This document shows positions 18,852 through 25,816 of a stretch of 64,000 bases of DNA, one piece after another. Where the stretch lies: the IMG/VR virus record IMGVR_UViG_3300043409_001033, positions 1 to 64,000 of that record, one strand, 5' to 3'. The stretch is from a virus. The notes beneath the pieces were generated by a model that was not told the origin of the DNA, ran no database searches, and worked only from the letters and a program-made list of their open reading frames with translations. Position numbers and translations under genes: made by a program. Each line of letters begins with the position of its first letter. Position 1 is the stretch's first letter.

Positions 18852-20054
18852 TTATTTAATATAAAATGGTAATGGAATATTTGCTAAAGTTTGAGATACC
18901 GACGATGCTTCTGCTTGTTGTCTTTCCAATTGATTTTTTCTTGAGGTTGCTTCTAACATTTCACGTAATTGTTGAAGTAAATCATCTCTTCTTTTATTGG
19001 CTTCGGTTATTAAATCTTGACTATTTAATTGTAATGTTTGCCCATCTTTTACATAAGGAATACCATTGGTAAATTTACCACGAATCATTGCAAGCATTTT
19101 CATCGAATACGCACAAGTCATATTAAATATCCAATCTTTACCTGTTGAGTTTATTGAAGAATAGGTGATATTTCCAATAGGAATATTTGAAATATTTGAT
19201 ACAAATGGATTGGTTTGAGTTGGTGGAGTTGAACCACTTTGATTATAAACATAATCATAATTTGCATCTCGTTCACTTGTTTTAATATATTCAAACCAAT
19301 ATTTACCCGATACTAATGGAATAGGCTGAATGGTTAAAACATTATTTCTTAATTCAAATGTATAAGAACTTCTTCTAATTTCATCGTTAAATTCAATAGC
19401 TTGGATTCTCATTGCATCATAGTTCATAGGCATTAATAAATAATTAACACCTACGTAAGAATCTCCGTAACCAAACCCATCTAAGAAGTTAGCAGTAGCA
19501 AGACCACCTGCCATAGTTGGGTCTAAAAATCTTGTAACAGCAGGACTTCTTTGATAAAATAATCTTTTGATTTCTATGGAGTCATCGGGATTTAAACTAC
19601 CCGAAGCAATAGCCCATTGCTTTAAATCGTATGTTTGTTGTCCTGCTACAACGTCAATATGACCTTTGTGATAAGTAACATTCCCACCCGAACCTGCTTC
19701 TGAACCGTAAGTTTTAGCTATTCTGATTATATTTCCTAAAGATGGGGTTATTTTAACATTATTAATGTCAAATGAAGAATCATTAGGTATAGGACTATTT
19801 TCAAAATTTATATAATTATCTCTTATCTTGAAGTTATTTACTTCACGAGAATATTCAAGAGTAGCTTGTTCAAAGGCATTATAAAAATGAATGTCTTGTA
19901 GTTCAACATCCATTATAGGGTATCCTAATTGAAATGCACAATATCTTGCTACTTTATCGGCATCACTTGCAAATTGAGGGTCATTATCGTAAATACCTCT
20001 TGCAGTCTTACCTGCCGAAAAAGTTGAGCTACCTGACCAAACAATTATTTCCAT
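18852..20054 (-). CDS. Neck protein (gp13-like)
   Basis: This 400-aa virion protein begins with a polar arm containing GIYDNDPQFASDADKVARYC followed by GYPIMDVELQDIHFYNAFEQA. That layout is typical of the neck/head-completion proteins that follow capsid genes in T4-like phages. A beta-rich middle (LRNNVLTIQPIPLVSGKYWFEYI) and a Gln/Glu-rich helical C terminus (LLQQLREMLEATSRKNQLER) follow. Perfect late-promoter element upstream (20064). The likely role is closing the portal vertex and accepting the tail. Confidence 0.65.
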   Translation of the reverse strand: MEIIVWSGSSTFSAGKTARGIYDNDPQFASDADKVARYCAFQLGYPIMDVELQDIHFYNAFEQATLEYSREVNNFKIRDNYINFENSPIPNDSSFDINNVKITPSLGNIIRIAKTYGSEAGSGGNVTYHKGHIDVVAGQQTYDLKQWAIASGSLNPDDSIEIKRLFYQRSPAVTRFLDPTMAGGLATANFLDGFGYGDSYVGVNYLLMPMNYDAMRIQAIEFNDEIRRSSYTFELRNNVLTIQPIPLVSGKYWFEYIKTSERDANYDYVYNQSGSTPPTQTNPFVSNISNIPIGNITYSSINSTGKDWIFNMTCAYSMKMLAMIRGKFTNGIPYVKDGQTLQLNSQDLITEANKRRDDLLQQLREMLEATSRKNQLERQQAEASSVSQTLANIPLPFYIK

Positions 20055-20098: not shown

Positions 20099-21178
20099 TT
20101 AGAAACCAATCTTCTTTGTATTAAGTTTAACTTTTGGTTGTTGATATTCAATATTATAAATATCTGCTAATGTCATTGGTGCTTCTGTTATGTAATCTAA
20201 ATCAAGTTCCTTTAGTAGATTATTTGATTGTTCAACATTTAATTTAGAAAATTTATGTTCTGCTATCAATCTTCCTTTTCTTAATAAAGCAGGGTCTATT
20301 CGTTCCCTTTCCATATTAAAAGTAGCAATAACATAAATGTTTAACAAATCTCCATAAATACCATCGGTTAAATTTAATAAATTAGATACACCACCACTGC
20401 TATCTTGTGAAATATTTCTATCGGTTAAAACTTTTTCTGCATCTTCTAAAATAAGAATAGAGTTATTGTTATTTATCAAAAAATCTGTAAAATCTGGATT
20501 AGTGATGCAATTTATTAAGTTAGGTGGAATAAAAATAACTGGTTTATTGAAATCTGATACCATATATTTTATAAGATTACTTTTACCTGTCCCTGCTTCT
20601 CTATGCAATAATATTAGTTTTCCATTAGACTTATCTTCATTGACAGATGAAATAATTGTATCATAAATTGGTTTAAATTCTTTTGAGTAGTGTGTTTCAA
20701 TATTTAAAATTGGTCTTTGGAGTTTCAACGAAACAGTAGTTAAGCCATTCTTAGTTGTTCTAAGTAGATTGATGTTATTTACACCATCTTTTATTAAATT
20801 ATCGAAGCAAGTCTCGATTAATTCTAATATAAACTTAGATTTATTTTCTATGTAATAAATTTTAACTTCATTTCCAATCCCCCAATCGTTTGTAGTAATT
20901 ACAATACCTGATTTGTATTCAAAAGTATACATCGCATCCCATTTAGAAGTAGGTGTTATTCCTGTTCTCGATTGTATCAATGGATATTTTAAAAATATGT
21001 CATAATTAACGTTATTGAGTTTCACATAATTTACAACTTGTTTTGGAAAGAGTCTTTTAAAATAATTAATTACAACATTACTCGTAAATTCTTCGTTACA
21101 ATTATCATGTAATCCATCTAATTGTAAATTAGCATTTGGTAAATTTTTTAAAATTTCTTCTTTTAGTTCTTTTGTCAT
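20099..21178 (-). CDS. AAA+ ATPase
   Basis: This 359-aa protein has an unassigned N-terminal domain (1-180) and a C-terminal AAA+ module. Walker A is REAGTGKS (193-200), Walker B is NSILILEDAE (239-248), a sensor-1-like ATFN lies at 285-288, and arginine-finger-type residues are in DPALLRKGR (295-303). The arrangement resembles BCS1/ClpX-like remodelling ATPases. It is not a clamp loader (no SRC motif) or terminase. It lies between the fusion gene and the neck gene, inside the virion block. It could remodel or chaperone assembly proteins, by analogy with other AAA+ unfoldases. The 80-90 region (WDAMYTFEYKSG) is conserved-looking but unassigned. Confidence 0.75.
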   Translation of the reverse strand: MTKELKEEILKNLPNANLQLDGLHDNCNEEFTSNVVINYFKRLFPKQVVNYVKLNNVNYDIFLKYPLIQSRTGITPTSKWDAMYTFEYKSGIVITTNDWGIGNEVKIYYIENKSKFILELIETCFDNLIKDGVNNINLLRTTKNGLTTVSLKLQRPILNIETHYSKEFKPIYDTIISSVNEDKSNGKLILLHREAGTGKSNLIKYMVSDFNKPVIFIPPNLINCITNPDFTDFLINNNNSILILEDAEKVLTDRNISQDSSGGVSNLLNLTDGIYGDLLNIYVIATFNMERERIDPALLRKGRLIAEHKFSKLNVEQSNNLLKELDLDYITEAPMTLADIYNIEYQQPKVKLNTKKIGF

Positions 21179-21218: not shown

Positions 21219-24068
21219 TTATTTGAATTTCAAAATTAATTCATCTTTTGTTTTACCATTTTTTGATAAATGTTTTGCAACATTATTTCTAAGATAGAAA
21301 GTTTCGTATTTTTTGTCGGTAAATAAATACTCTAAATCTTTTGGAATGTTCAATAACAAATTATCATATTTTAATAAAGCGGAAATGAAAGTGTCTTTCC
21401 AATGTTCAATATTGTAATAAATTTGTTGATTTGAATAAGTCTCTAAATCATAATAAGGAATTGATGTAAAAACTAAATCAAATTTATTTTCAAAACTTGA
21501 ATCATCAAAATCTTCAAATCTACAATTAAAAATCTTAACATTATTGAAATTTTTTGAAAGTTCTATCAATTCATTATAAGTATCAATATTTGGTTCACAA
21601 CCAATATAAGTACCATTTGGATAAATAGACTTAAATCCTAATAATCTACCACCAAATCCACAACAAGGGTCTAATACAATTGGTTTTTGTTTATTACCAA
21701 TAAATTCTTTATAAATAGCTCCTGCAACCAAAGGTTTAAAAAATGAGATTGTTCCTCTAATAGCAGAAATTCCTTTTAAAATTTGTTTATAAGATAAATC
21801 AAAAACTTCACCAGATTCATTTAATCCAATTCTATATTCAACTATTTTTCTCAAAGTTTCATTGTCTTGATACATTTGATAAGCAGTTAATTTATGTCCT
21901 TTGTATTTGGAATGAAAATAACTTTTGAATATAGATTTTAAATATGTAACTCCAACAGGATAAGCATTATTTTTGAATACTTTATCCTGTCTATCATACA
22001 CCTTAGACATATCATAATTATTAATAGTCAATGCAATATCAACAATAGAATTATTTGAAGTTGGGTATGGGAACTCTGGTTCGTATATTTTCAATAGTCT
22101 TATAATAGGCGAAACCATATCTTTTAAAAAAGAATCTCCTGATAATGGGGAATTTTTATGATTAATAAAATAATCTCTACTCATAATAACTTGATTATGA
22201 GGAATTGTTTGTTCAACTACTCTATTATATTTTTCTAAATCTTCTAATGATTGTAATTTAGGAACATCTAAATCTAATATTCTATAATCGACCTTTCCAA
22301 ATTTTCTTTTATCTCCAATAGCACCTGTTAATTGGTCTTTGTTTAGATTTTCTTTTTTCATAGGATGATAATATGAACCATCAATTTCTACCAATAGATT
22401 TTGTTCTGGTAAATAAAAATCAATTAAACCAAATTCTTGTGGGTATTGTGAAATATAAGGTATATTCAATCTTTCGCAAAAGTTTTTAAAAGCTAATTCT
22501 CCTTTAGTATCTCTCTTTTTTTGGTTAGAACCTCTCAAAATAGCACTTCTACTCATTTTAGCTCTTGTTTCGTCTGTTAACAAAGAACCGTCCCAAATAG
22601 GAGGTGGTGTATGTTCTTTTATATAATCTCTACAATATGAAACTTCGCCTTTATCGTTTCTACCACTCTCTAATATAGTAACTTTTTGTCCACAATTGTT
22701 TTCACATTTACACGTAGGATGAATATCATTAAAAATATATTTCAAAATATAGTCTTTTTTTGTAATATTATGATTACGCTTAACGTGTTTTGATAACATA
22801 AACTCACTAAGCATTTTTTGATTACAAATTTTACAAAACAAATTTGAGTTTTCTAATTTTTGGTTTAATTCAATAACATGAGGTCTAAATTCTCCAAATG
22901 TTTCTGTATATCTCCTAATGTTCCATTCTGGGTGTTTGTGTGCTAAGTGAGTTCTAATTCCATGCACTGTGTTTTCTTGATTACAAATTTTACAAACATG
23001 AATAGAATTATCAACTATTATTTTAGGCTCTTGTTTTGGTTTTAAATTAGCAATTTTATTTAACAATTTTTCATTTTTGATAGCATCTTTTTCAACCTTA
23101 GCAATATGTCTAAGAATAGACTTTTGAAAAGATTTTTGTTGTCTTAATTGTTCTTTTGCTAATTCCTTTTCTTCTTTAGTTTTGATATTATATAATGATT
23201 TCTTTGTTTGTATCTGTTTTTCAATATTTACATAATTTGAATCACCATATTTTTCTAATTTAGTTTGTTTAATTTTATCCGATGATGTTGGGATAAACAT
23301 TGCATTTTCAACACCGTGTTTAGATAATAAAGTAGCTTTCATATTTTCATATTTCAATTTAGCTACTTCTGGTTTGTCTGGTTGTCTTTCTCTATGATGA
23401 TTCAAATAATACTGGAAATAGTTATTATCTCTTAACTCTCTTTTGTCTGAAAATAGGGTTGGTTGACCGCATCCACATAAACATAATGGTGCGATACCTT
23501 TTAATTTTACATTTAGATAATAATCCTTTTTTGATAAGTTATGTTCTTTCTTTAAATGTCTAACAAATTCTCCCGAATTAGATAATGTTTTGTTACATAC
23601 TTCGCATAAGTGAGGTTCATTGATGAATCTTTCCGAATCTTGTTTGATGACGCTTTCTTTAGGTACATAATTAGGTTTAGTTTTCATTGTCTCCGCCTTT
23701 TTCTCATTAACTTCCTTAGATTTAGAGATATGTTCTACACCATACTTTTTTAACCAAGTTTGTTTTTGATTTTCTTTAGCCTTTTGTTTACTTTCTTCTG
23801 AAAGTGGTTCTCTCGGAGAATGATTTCGAGCGTATTCATAAAAATAAGCTCTATTTAGGTATTTAGATTCTTGCCTAAAACCTACTAATTTATCACAATC
23901 TTCTTTACACATACATTTTGGATGGTGTCCATCAAATATATGTTCTATAAGATAATCTTTCAATTCTACTTCATGTTTTCTCAAATGAAGTGTGAAAGTT
24001 CTCGGAGTTTCAAAAGTTTCTCCACATATTTTACATTTTTTGTAAAATTCACTTAGGTTGTCAATCAT
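21219..24068 (-). CDS. Zinc-finger / VSR-like endonuclease / DNA methyltransferase fusion
   Basis: I choose the ATG at 24068 (949 aa). The longer frame to 24134 would begin inside the capsid terminator, whereas 24068 has a late-promoter-like TATAATTA 17 bases upstream. Four C2H2-type fingers (C12/C15/H28/H32; C155/C158/H171/H176; C359/C362/H374/H378; C412/C415/H428/H433) alternate with Cys-rich knuckles (KCMCKEDC, LCLCGCGQ, CKCENNCGQ) and KYGVEH-type repeats of phage homing nucleases. Residues 520-605 form a VSR/EDxHD-like nuclease core (E524, D550, E561, D563, H568). Residues 775-949 form a Rossmann methyltransferase with motif I DPCCGFGGR (800-808) and a motif-IV-like SIPYYD (869-874). It lies between capsid and neck genes, so a selfish element is likely. 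Confidence 0.8.
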   Translation of the reverse strand: MIDNLSEFYKKCKICGETFETPRTFTLHLRKHEVELKDYLIEHIFDGHHPKCMCKEDCDKLVGFRQESKYLNRAYFYEYARNHSPREPLSEESKQKAKENQKQTWLKKYGVEHISKSKEVNEKKAETMKTKPNYVPKESVIKQDSERFINEPHLCEVCNKTLSNSGEFVRHLKKEHNLSKKDYYLNVKLKGIAPLCLCGCGQPTLFSDKRELRDNNYFQYYLNHHRERQPDKPEVAKLKYENMKATLLSKHGVENAMFIPTSSDKIKQTKLEKYGDSNYVNIEKQIQTKKSLYNIKTKEEKELAKEQLRQQKSFQKSILRHIAKVEKDAIKNEKLLNKIANLKPKQEPKIIVDNSIHVCKICNQENTVHGIRTHLAHKHPEWNIRRYTETFGEFRPHVIELNQKLENSNLFCKICNQKMLSEFMLSKHVKRNHNITKKDYILKYIFNDIHPTCKCENNCGQKVTILESGRNDKGEVSYCRDYIKEHTPPPIWDGSLLTDETRAKMSRSAILRGSNQKKRDTKGELAFKNFCERLNIPYISQYPQEFGLIDFYLPEQNLLVEIDGSYYHPMKKENLNKDQLTGAIGDKRKFGKVDYRILDLDVPKLQSLEDLEKYNRVVEQTIPHNQVIMSRDYFINHKNSPLSGDSFLKDMVSPIIRLLKIYEPEFPYPTSNNSIVDIALTINNYDMSKVYDRQDKVFKNNAYPVGVTYLKSIFKSYFHSKYKGHKLTAYQMYQDNETLRKIVEYRIGLNESGEVFDLSYKQILKGISAIRGTISFFKPLVAGAIYKEFIGNKQKPIVLDPCCGFGGRLLGFKSIYPNGTYIGCEPNIDTYNELIELSKNFNNVKIFNCRFEDFDDSSFENKFDLVFTSIPYYDLETYSNQQIYYNIEHWKDTFISALLKYDNLLLNIPKDLEYLFTDKKYETFYLRNNVAKHLSKNGKTKDELILKFK

Positions 24069-24116: not shown

Positions 24117-24154
24117 AAAAAGTTTCAAACTCAATTAAGAATTTGAAACTTTTT
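24117..24154 (-). terminator. Strong terminator after the major capsid gene
   Basis: A 13-bp perfect stem (AAAAAGTTTCAAA / TTTGAAACTTTTT) with a 12-base loop lies 67 bases downstream of the capsid stop codon and ends in a T run. It is the longest clear hairpin in the window and would isolate capsid mRNA from the fusion gene. The symmetry means it could also work in the other direction. Confidence 0.85.
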
Positions 24155-24220: not shown

Positions 24221-25816
24221 TTACACCGTATGAAGTCCGCCAACAATTACATCTCCAAAAAATGAGTTTCTAAGGGCAGTTTTAGCATATCGGGTCAACA
24301 TGAACTTATTAGGGGTAGCTGTATTATAATTATAAATCAAAGGTGTAACTTCGAGAGGAATATAAGGACATAAAGCGGCTCCTGCTTCTAAGAAGTTTGC
24401 ACCTTTAAAGCCCATTAACAAGCGGTTCTCAGTATAATAAGGGTTTTTGAACACTTTATATTGAGAGTTGAATGAACCTACACGTGTATTACCTAAACCA
24501 GACGTAGCTTTACCTACTTCGGCATCAGACATATAACCAGCCATCGACTCTAACACGTTAGCAACTTTTGGCGATACAACAATGAAGTTAGCTTCACCTC
24601 TTACAGTTTTTTGCAAGATAGAGTTAGACACTTTATTGATTTTTGTACCCAAAGTTCTAAACCAATCTTGTTGAGAGTTATAATAACCAGAAGTCATTGG
24701 TGTGAACGCAGTGCCAGTAGAGTTGATTTGGATGTTGTTTTCAGCAGTCCAATAATCACGAGTACCACCAGCAGGCACAGCACTTGAAATCATATCTAAT
24801 ACTTCTAAGTCGATTTCTCTTGCGATACTATCAGACATCATACCAGTAATTTCAGATTCCAAGTCGATACCTTGATACGCCTTAACGTCCTGTATCATTT
24901 CTTGTGTCCATTGCCCTTTTAATTTACGAGTTTTAGCAGAAACTTGTTTTGAAGTCCATTCAGCATAGAACTCAGGAATGTTCAATGAACCAGTTCTATC
25001 TTCAAAGTCACCACGAGCATTATCAACAGTTTGTTTTTGGTAATAAACCAAAGCAGTACCATTTACAACGTTTGCACTTGAACCAGATACCACGAAGATA
25101 ACGTTAGTACCAGTTCCATCGGTAACAGTATACTGTTGATAAACGTTAGCTGGAACAACACCAGAACCAGACAAAGTGAAACCTCTTACAGCCAACACAT
25201 CATAAGATGGTAAAGATGAAGTTGGTACAGATACTAATTTGATTTCGTTACGAGCAACAGAACCAGATAAAGATGAATCAAACCAAACATCTTTAAATGA
25301 ACCAGATGTTACAGTTGTTGATGCAGAAGCAGAGTTTGGTGCAAGTGAATACGTGAAACGACCAGAACCATACAAACCACCAGAAACATCAGCACCAGTA
25401 TCAGTGATACCATATACAGAATCTCCGCTTGTAAATGGTGATTTAGAGTTTGCATATTTGAAATCCAAATAGAACACTAAACCAGTTGGCATTTGCAATG
25501 GTTGAATAGAAACAAACTCTTTTGCAGAAATCAAGTCAGCAAATACCTTACGTACTAAAGGTAAGATAACACCAGCAACTTGTTCACCAGTTCCACCCGG
25601 ATAAGTAGCACCACCTAAGTTAGTTTGGTTAGTTGTTTCTTTTAAAATGTGACCTAATTGGTTATGTAAAAGGTTTGCCATTTGAACTTTTTCAATTGGA
25701 TTCAAGCCTTCCAATAAACCAATTTTCTCATACATTCCTACTTTCTCAGTAGATTTTTGATATTGTTCGTTGATTGCTTTTCTTTGATAATCAGCGAATT
25801 GTTGGAAATTTGACAT
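24221..25816 (-). CDS. Major capsid protein (gp23-like)
   Basis: This 531-aa protein (T4 gp23 is 521 aa) forms the head shell. Residues 1-60 look like the removable N-terminal delta domain (charged and helical, NEQYQKSTEKVGMYEKIGLL). LKE at 58-60 fits the T4 protease rule (L/I-x-E, cut after Glu), so the mature protein would start TTNQTNLGGATYPGG. The HK97-fold body carries VFADLISAKEFVSIQPLQMP (91-110) and the long spine-helix region with KGQWTQEMIQDVKAYQGIDLES. It follows scaffold and protease genes in T4 order and is followed by the strongest terminator seen. Gene context and length make this secure. I saw no separate vertex (gp24-like) copy. Confidence 0.93.
   Translation of the reverse strand: MSNFQQFADYQRKAINEQYQKSTEKVGMYEKIGLLEGLNPIEKVQMANLLHNQLGHILKETTNQTNLGGATYPGGTGEQVAGVILPLVRKVFADLISAKEFVSIQPLQMPTGLVFYLDFKYANSKSPFTSGDSVYGITDTGADVSGGLYGSGRFTYSLAPNSASASTTVTSGSFKDVWFDSSLSGSVARNEIKLVSVPTSSLPSYDVLAVRGFTLSGSGVVPANVYQQYTVTDGTGTNVIFVVSGSSANVVNGTALVYYQKQTVDNARGDFEDRTGSLNIPEFYAEWTSKQVSAKTRKLKGQWTQEMIQDVKAYQGIDLESEITGMMSDSIAREIDLEVLDMISSAVPAGGTRDYWTAENNIQINSTGTAFTPMTSGYYNSQQDWFRTLGTKINKVSNSILQKTVRGEANFIVVSPKVANVLESMAGYMSDAEVGKATSGLGNTRVGSFNSQYKVFKNPYYTENRLLMGFKGANFLEAGAALCPYIPLEVTPLIYNYNTATPNKFMLTRYAKTALRNSFFGDVIVGGLHTV

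Follow-up and report, generated by a model that had tools for sequence, protein, structure and literature searches.

A probable free-standing homing endonuclease that carries its own methyltransferase behind the major capsid gene of a T4-type phage

Introduction

Homing endonucleases are usually viewed as escaping self-cleavage because insertion of the gene, or a difference in sequence, removes the target. The free-standing homing endonucleases of T4, however, cut hundreds to thousands of base pairs away from their own gene (PMC2988022), so that insertion leaves the target undestroyed, and a donor whose target is intact needs another means of resisting its own enzyme. Fusions of a restriction endonuclease with Mom (REase–Mom fusions) have been predicted in jumbo phages and read as restriction-like (Iyer et al. 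2021, PMC7824862). Here we analyze a gene found in the first 64,000 nucleotides of the IMG/VR virus record IMGVR_UViG_3300043409_001033; this whole stretch is referred to below as the window, and it is part of a 74,192-base record with T4-type virion genes. The gene encodes a single chain in which C2H2 zinc fingers, an EDxHD/VSR-type nuclease, and a methyltransferase are fused, and it lies behind the gene for the gp23-type major capsid protein (MCP). We consider it likely that this gene is a free-standing homing endonuclease with its own DNA-modification domain, which would protect its undisrupted target.

The nuclease family, the methyltransferase fold, and free-standing homing are already known, and nuclease–Mom fusions have been a published prediction since 2021. 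Our search of the open-access literature turned up no report of the methyltransferase version, of its recurrence with other homing nucleases, of the capsid-gene slot, or of insertion-site evidence. The ShiLan element (PMC11855218) was considered as a precedent and set aside; it has an HNH gene inside a methylase gene, which is a different arrangement.

Results

The fusion is present in 13 distinct sequences when near-identical contigs are counted once (the window, L002, L007, L153, L154, L155, L156, L157, L159, L160, L161, L162, and L355), which come from a huge phage genome (LR756508) and from viral contigs. The other fusion proteins are about 32–42% identical to that of the window, and because 13 sequences this divergent carry it, the fusion is no artifact of assembly. 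The two active sites are conserved across the fusions even though the nuclease–methyltransferase cores are just 33–45% identical to the window's. In 12 of the 13 cases the gene is directly downstream of the gp23-type MCP gene. The exception, L002, has it one gene further on, with a nuclease–Mom gene between, and in L161 and L162 (and their copies) the fusion is followed immediately by a nuclease–Mom gene. Among MCP relatives collected independently of the fusion, the slot is mostly without it, and a PhoH-like or neck gene follows the MCP gene. Bacterial genomes scanned with a two-sequence profile yielded no relative, and a scan with the single protein found only L006.

The occupied L159 and the empty L361 are collinear, with L159 1–3780 aligning to L361 up to 5820 at 86.6% identity and L159 5763–6583 aligning to L361 5826–6647 at 95.4%. 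Relative to L361, the insert of L159 is 1,982 bp long, begins 8 bp beyond the MCP stop codon, and contains the fusion gene. L370 is also empty at the slot, and the gene is thus not an ancestral fixture for which no empty-site variant exists. The first-pass annotation of the window, made from its letters alone, had proposed that the gene was inserted; this holds for the family, on the comparison of L159 with L361 and L370, whereas the window's own lineage offers no direct empty-site evidence. Within the same few dozen bases, L356 and L371 each have a GIY-YIG homing endonuclease gene (Pfam E about 1e-10), and one of these two genes has a strong NUMOD3 match. The insertion points in L155, L159, and L356 are tens of bases apart, all just behind the MCP stop codon, and their differing positions suggest that the target is near, not at, the insertion point.

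Exchange and decay are seen as well. Over 10.7 kb L158 and L156 are 99.85% identical, but L158 has a stop codon in finger 2, and L166 contains a broken fusion remnant without the nuclease. L155 and L159 have MCPs that are 87% identical, methyltransferase modules that are 57% identical, and different N termini. The methyltransferase module of L159 is closest to that of L154 (62%), yet the MCP of L154 is only 60% identical to that of L159. On the MCP tree the fusion-bearing phages are partly clustered, and parsimony gives six changes for the fusion gene, two of which are forced by strongly supported branches. As judged from these sequences, the gene has been gained, exchanged, degraded, and lost at a single spot, as a homing gene would be, and mobility of the fusion family is well supported.

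The nuclease of the window protein contains E524, D550, E561, D563, H568, D586, and K589. An alignment of 11 fusions shows that E524, D563, H568, D586, and K589 are invariant and that D550 and E561 are nearly so; D586 probably corresponds to the final D of "EDxHD." A profile of these 11 fusions searched against the PDB matched one distinct sequence, 3R3P (E=1e-4), which is listed as "Mobile intron protein" and as the catalytic domain of I-Bth0305I, and no Type IIG enzyme was matched in this search. The 3R3P chain has alanine at the positions matching D550 and H568, which we tentatively take as engineered inactivation. With a single sequence, matches to Vsr were weak (E about 0.05). When the whole nuclease–methyltransferase model was used in a fold search, only methyltransferases were listed, and the nuclease needed a separate model. 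Residues 510–637 were therefore modeled alone, with a predicted local distance difference test score (pLDDT) of 79.5. The best Foldseek match to this model is 3R3P (E=7e-4), and the top VIA-align matches are Vsr (1CW0, Z 7.6) and 3R3P (Z 7.2), values that are weak by themselves, being below 8, and that agree with the sequence match to 3R3P. The match to the Type IIG enzyme BpuSI is weak (Foldseek E=0.12). The EDxHD/VSR-type core recognized in the first-pass annotation is borne out by these profile and fold matches, with residues 520–605 finding structural counterparts in 3R3P and 1CW0, and the catalytic domain is predicted to have a VSR-like PD-(D/E)XK fold.

The nuclease–methyltransferase core is modeled by AlphaFold2 as a confident fold (pLDDT 87.6, predicted template modeling score 0.82), and its C-terminal part, METHYLTRANSFERASE, is a class I methyltransferase in the model. 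The best VIA matches are amino-group enzymes, namely Trm11 (Z 15.6), METTL5 (15.0), and the predicted DNA methylase 3K0B (14.5). The window protein has the motifs DPCCGFGGR and SIPYYD, and the other fusions keep DPCxGFGGR and FTS(I/T)PY; together with the class I model, this conservation upholds the N-type methyltransferase that had been called from the two motifs. The modeled class I fold, motif I, and a motif IV like (N/D/S)PP(Y/F) point to an amino methyltransferase acting on N6 of adenine or N4 of cytosine, and DNA would be its substrate, to judge from the DNA-binding and nuclease parts to which it is fused. More distant, single-domain relatives from Vibrio, Bacteroides, and Staphylococcus/Mammaliicoccus phages have SPPY as motif IV, and two of the three examined match Pfam N6_N4_Mtase above the cut-off. 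Mom was not matched in the window protein, nor was it among the best 25 of the 27 families listed for the 11 fusions.

The N-terminal part contains four C2H2 fingers (C12–H32, C155–H176, C359–H379, and C412–H433). Of the four fingers with knuckles originally described, all of the fingers stand, but only three CxC..C knuckles are present, after fingers 1, 2, and 4, and finger 3 has none. Residues 91–216 match phrog_3339, "homing endonuclease" (E=3.3e-7). DUF7487-type and phrog_3339 matches are seen in 7 and 8 of the 11 fusions, respectively, and DUF7487-like segments occur in families annotated as homing endonucleases. The nuclease is therefore tethered to modular DNA-binding regions (C2H2 fingers, DUF7487 segments, and PHROG homing-endonuclease families), as is expected of an EDxHD homing endonuclease.

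The slot has other occupants. In other relatives it holds a GIY-YIG gene, a nuclease–Mom gene, a decayed copy, or nothing. The C-terminal domain of the sister proteins, those of the nuclease–Mom kind, matches Pfam Mom in 22 of 24 (best E=4.8e-9). Among phages with closely similar MCPs, the nuclease–Mom slot is occupied in L096, decayed in L041, and empty in L043, and on the MCP tree seven separate occurrences of this gene are forced in seven phages. Two sister genes, both located after the MCP gene, are unusual in structure. The protein encoded directly after the MCP gene in L130 (2830–4932) is permuted, with the nuclease and Mom first and the zinc fingers last, and the gene in L146 (4803–6474) is split by a frameshift within the nuclease and is probably a decayed copy.

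Methyltransferases of the window's family are also found on homing endonucleases of other types, being fused to LAGLIDADG_2 (L180 and relatives, E=3e-20), LAGLIDADG_3 (L209, E=1e-8), and NUMOD4–HNH_3 (L165, E=4e-15). The LAGLIDADG–methyltransferase genes lie directly behind the major head protein gene of another family, phrog_2522. Repeated joining of this methyltransferase to unrelated homing nucleases, together with the recurrent location behind capsid genes, would be hard to explain unless modification serves homing. The case for self-protection is now stronger because there is a Mom domain in the slot's second nuclease family and because the methyltransferase is present on three other homing types.

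Two further arrangements were noted during the comparison of these methyltransferase fusions. In L209 (1710–3524) the phrog_2522 major head gene appears to be in two pieces, with a LAGLIDADG_2 homing endonuclease (E=1e-35) between or next to them, and the LAGLIDADG_3–methyltransferase gene is directly downstream of the split head gene, such that two homing genes lie at one capsid gene. In L197, L172, L171, L214, and L168, ORFs near 3.2–5.8 kb combine a zinc-finger/helix-turn-helix part, a nuclease-like region (D..EAHGxQH), and the same methyltransferase. The genes of this clade are located behind a shared gene encoding about 1000 residues, which looks tail-sheath-like by eye and has no Pfam or PHROG match. 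The clade was considered as a candidate EDxHD group and rejected, as hhalign against the window-type nuclease was non-significant (probability 3%, E=0.013).

An open reading frame (ORF) check of the window confirms the extent first assigned to the fusion gene, with an ATG at 24068 and a stop codon at 21221–21219 on the minus strand. The gene order on this strand is a scaffold-like gene, the gp23-type MCP gene, the fusion, an AAA ATPase gene, and the neck protein gene (Table 1). A terminator–promoter boundary upstream of the fusion had been taken to fit insertion. The terminator is indeed there (24154–24117), but one follows the MCP gene in empty-site relatives too, and its presence alone therefore does not indicate insertion; the L159 insert, for its part, adds a second terminator. 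A scan for sigma-70 promoters found 55 where 44 +/- 7 were expected, which is little above chance. The GC content of the fusion gene (21–30%) is close to that of its neighbors outside the capsid gene and gives no hint of foreign origin.

Table 1. Features of the fusion gene and its neighborhood in the window
Feature	Position	Strand	Basis
gp23-type MCP; upstream neighbor, fixed partner of the insertion slot	24221..25816	-	Pfam Gp23 E=1.3e-64
Hairpin-T terminator between MCP and fusion genes	24117..24154	-	Terminators also follow MCP in other fusion phages and in empty ones
Zinc-finger / EDxHD-VSR nuclease / methyltransferase fusion, 949 residues (P0001)	21219..24068	-	Same fusion in 13 distinct sequences
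C2H2 finger 1 (residues 12-32), then CxC..C knuckle	23973..24035	-	Pfam zf-C2H2_4 and zf-C2H2
DUF7487-type segment (residues 93-131)	23676..23792	-	Pfam PF24308 E=1.1e-8
C2H2 finger 2 (residues 155-176), then knuckle	23541..23606	-	Pfam scan and sequence
C2H2 finger 3 (residues 359-379), without knuckle	22932..22994	-	Sequence; conserved with P0005
C2H2 finger 4 (residues 412-433), then knuckle	22770..22835	-	Sequence; conserved with P0005 and P0006
EDxHD/VSR-type nuclease domain (about residues 515-605)	22254..22526	-	3R3P profile match, 3R3P and Vsr fold match, invariant residues
Methyltransferase module (about residues 640-949), class I fold, motif I before IV	21222..22151	-	AlphaFold2 model, VIA matches
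Methyltransferase motif I, VLDPCCGFGGRLLG	21636..21677	-	DPCxGFGGR invariant in 11 fusions
Methyltransferase motif IV, TSIPYYD	21447..21467	-	TS(I/T)PY in 11 fusions
AAA-type ATPase, downstream neighbor	20099..21178	-	Pfam AAA E=1.4e-7
Neck / head-tail adaptor, next gene on	18852..20054	-	phrog_211 Ad2 E=2.6e-8

Most relatives have, in the position after the slot, a gene that we take from its sequence to be PhoH-like, where the window has the AAA ATPase gene. This ATPase belongs to phrog_14322 and may itself be a replacement or an insertion. A second hot spot is suggested by small VSR-like nuclease genes that several relatives (L009, 5970–6560; also L320, L321, L325, L326, L329, and L339) carry behind the neck gene and ahead of the following virion gene. 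In L007 and L008 an in-frame TGA replaces a conserved tryptophan of the MCP (LKAV-TGA-TPE versus LKAVWTPE, at about 6916–6918 of L007), and the same is seen in the neck protein (GKQ-TGA-I versus GKQWI in others, at about 12050–12060 of L007). The phage represented by these two contigs probably reads TGA as tryptophan.

Discussion

A self-protecting, free-standing homing endonuclease is the explanation that we favor on the basis of the domain make-up, the conservation of the active sites, the mobility at one slot with gain or decay, and the repeated methyltransferase fusions. The zinc fingers and linked repeats would bind a long target, and the EDxHD/VSR domain would cut this target in a co-infecting phage without the gene; the target is probably in the end of the conserved capsid gene or close to it. 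Repair of the break from the donor template would copy the gene into the slot right behind the capsid gene. With a free-standing gene beside the target, not inside it, the donor's target would stay intact, and the methyltransferase would mark this intact target and prevent its cleavage. Nuclease identity and family mobility support the self-protecting homing element envisaged in the first-pass annotation; the self-protection itself we infer, along with cleavage, its exact target, the modified base, and the blocking of cleavage by modification.

Several considerations weigh against this explanation. To our knowledge, the known free-standing homing endonucleases of T4 escape self-cleavage without a modifying enzyme. 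No close empty relative was found for the window's lineage, and its nearest kin, L153 (55% MCP identity), is also occupied. Motif IV is IPY in the fusion and PPY in the single-domain relatives; this variant presumably resembles the NLPY/NIPY of the KsgA/Dim1 enzymes and is for that reason no argument for inactivity. The substrate of the methyltransferase could also be RNA, or DNA at other sites, as RNA methyltransferases are among the best fold matches to the model. Finally, it is difficult to distinguish by sequence between a selfish element and a weapon that excludes rival phages.

In a different scenario, the protein is a single-chain restriction-modification weapon, the methyltransferase of which would shield the phage genome while the nuclease would destroy the DNA of the host or phages that superinfect it, and the slot would merely be convenient for expression. 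This is how the jumbo-phage nuclease–Mom fusions were interpreted by Iyer et al. (2021, PMC7824862), and the presence of a nuclease and a methyltransferase in one chain resembles Type IIG enzymes. We regard this scenario as unlikely. In the PDB profile search the nuclease matches a homing endonuclease and no Type IIG enzyme, and the long, multi-module N termini suggest that the targets are long and rare, unlike restriction sites, which are frequent. Moreover, occupation of a fixed spot beside one gene, with empty and decayed alleles and with GIY-YIG replacement at that spot, is how homing genes behave. A weapon-like role against co-infecting phages could coexist with homing.

The catalytic motifs of the methyltransferase are invariant in all fusions, and the joining of this domain to several types of homing endonuclease, with Mom as a parallel, argues for a role tied to cleavage. 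It is thus improbable that the gene is a homing gene carrying its methyltransferase as a passenger or as a part domesticated to benefit the host phage, be it as anti-restriction for the whole genome or as an extra DNA-binding module, even though the genes for the single-domain relatives are of the ordinary phage kind and lie away from the virion block, some of them near nucleotide-metabolism genes, and orphan methyltransferases are common in phages. Scarcely credible is an ancestral, vertically inherited, and immobile virion-block gene with a structural or regulatory role, which would fit a gene that is always at or near the same spot in gp23-type phages and has carriers partly clustered on the MCP tree but which is already contradicted for the family by the clean 1,982-bp insertion relative to L361 and L370, the tree incongruence, the broken alleles, and the emptiness of the slot in most relatives.

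Beyond this one family, we lean slightly toward the existence of a recurring class of "self-shielding" homing endonucleases, which would keep an intact target nearby and survive by modifying it. Such a class would have had several independent origins, with one phage methyltransferase family, or Mom, being joined to EDxHD, LAGLIDADG, and HNH nucleases. If real, it would link homing genes directly with restriction-modification systems. With a modification enzyme of its own, a homing gene could retain an intact target in an essential, highly conserved gene, the capsid gene being an example, and could thereby spread into very diverse phages.

Overall, the window fusion combines features of several known systems. 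It shares with I-Bth0305I (3R3P) the nuclease, by both profile and fold, the E, D, H, D pattern, and the tethering of the nuclease to several DNA-binding modules. I-Bth0305I, however, is a mobile-intron enzyme for which a review describes no modification domain, whereas the window protein is free-standing, zinc-fingered, and methyltransferase-bearing. Like the fusion gene, the T4 Seg and Mob genes sit between conserved phage genes, with intronless homing and a target in neighboring DNA, but they encode nucleases of the GIY-YIG or HNH type that lack a methyltransferase. Type IIG enzymes have an endonuclease and an amino methyltransferase on one polypeptide, as does the window fusion, but the nuclease here is VSR-like, specificity probably resides in the zinc fingers and repeats, and the gene behaves as a site-specific mobile insertion. 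The Vsr mismatch endonuclease has the same nuclease fold (1CW0, Z 7.6) but is a stand-alone repair enzyme for T:G mismatches that arise from 5-methylcytosine deamination. The REase–Mom fusions differ in having a GNAT-fold Mom where the window fusion has an S-adenosylmethionine-dependent methyltransferase, and their published interpretation is restriction-like, without insertion-site evidence. They resemble the window fusion in placing a nuclease and a DNA-modification domain on one chain, and genes of this same make-up, with zinc fingers like those of the window protein, occupy the same slot behind the capsid gene, sometimes in tandem with a gene of the window type.

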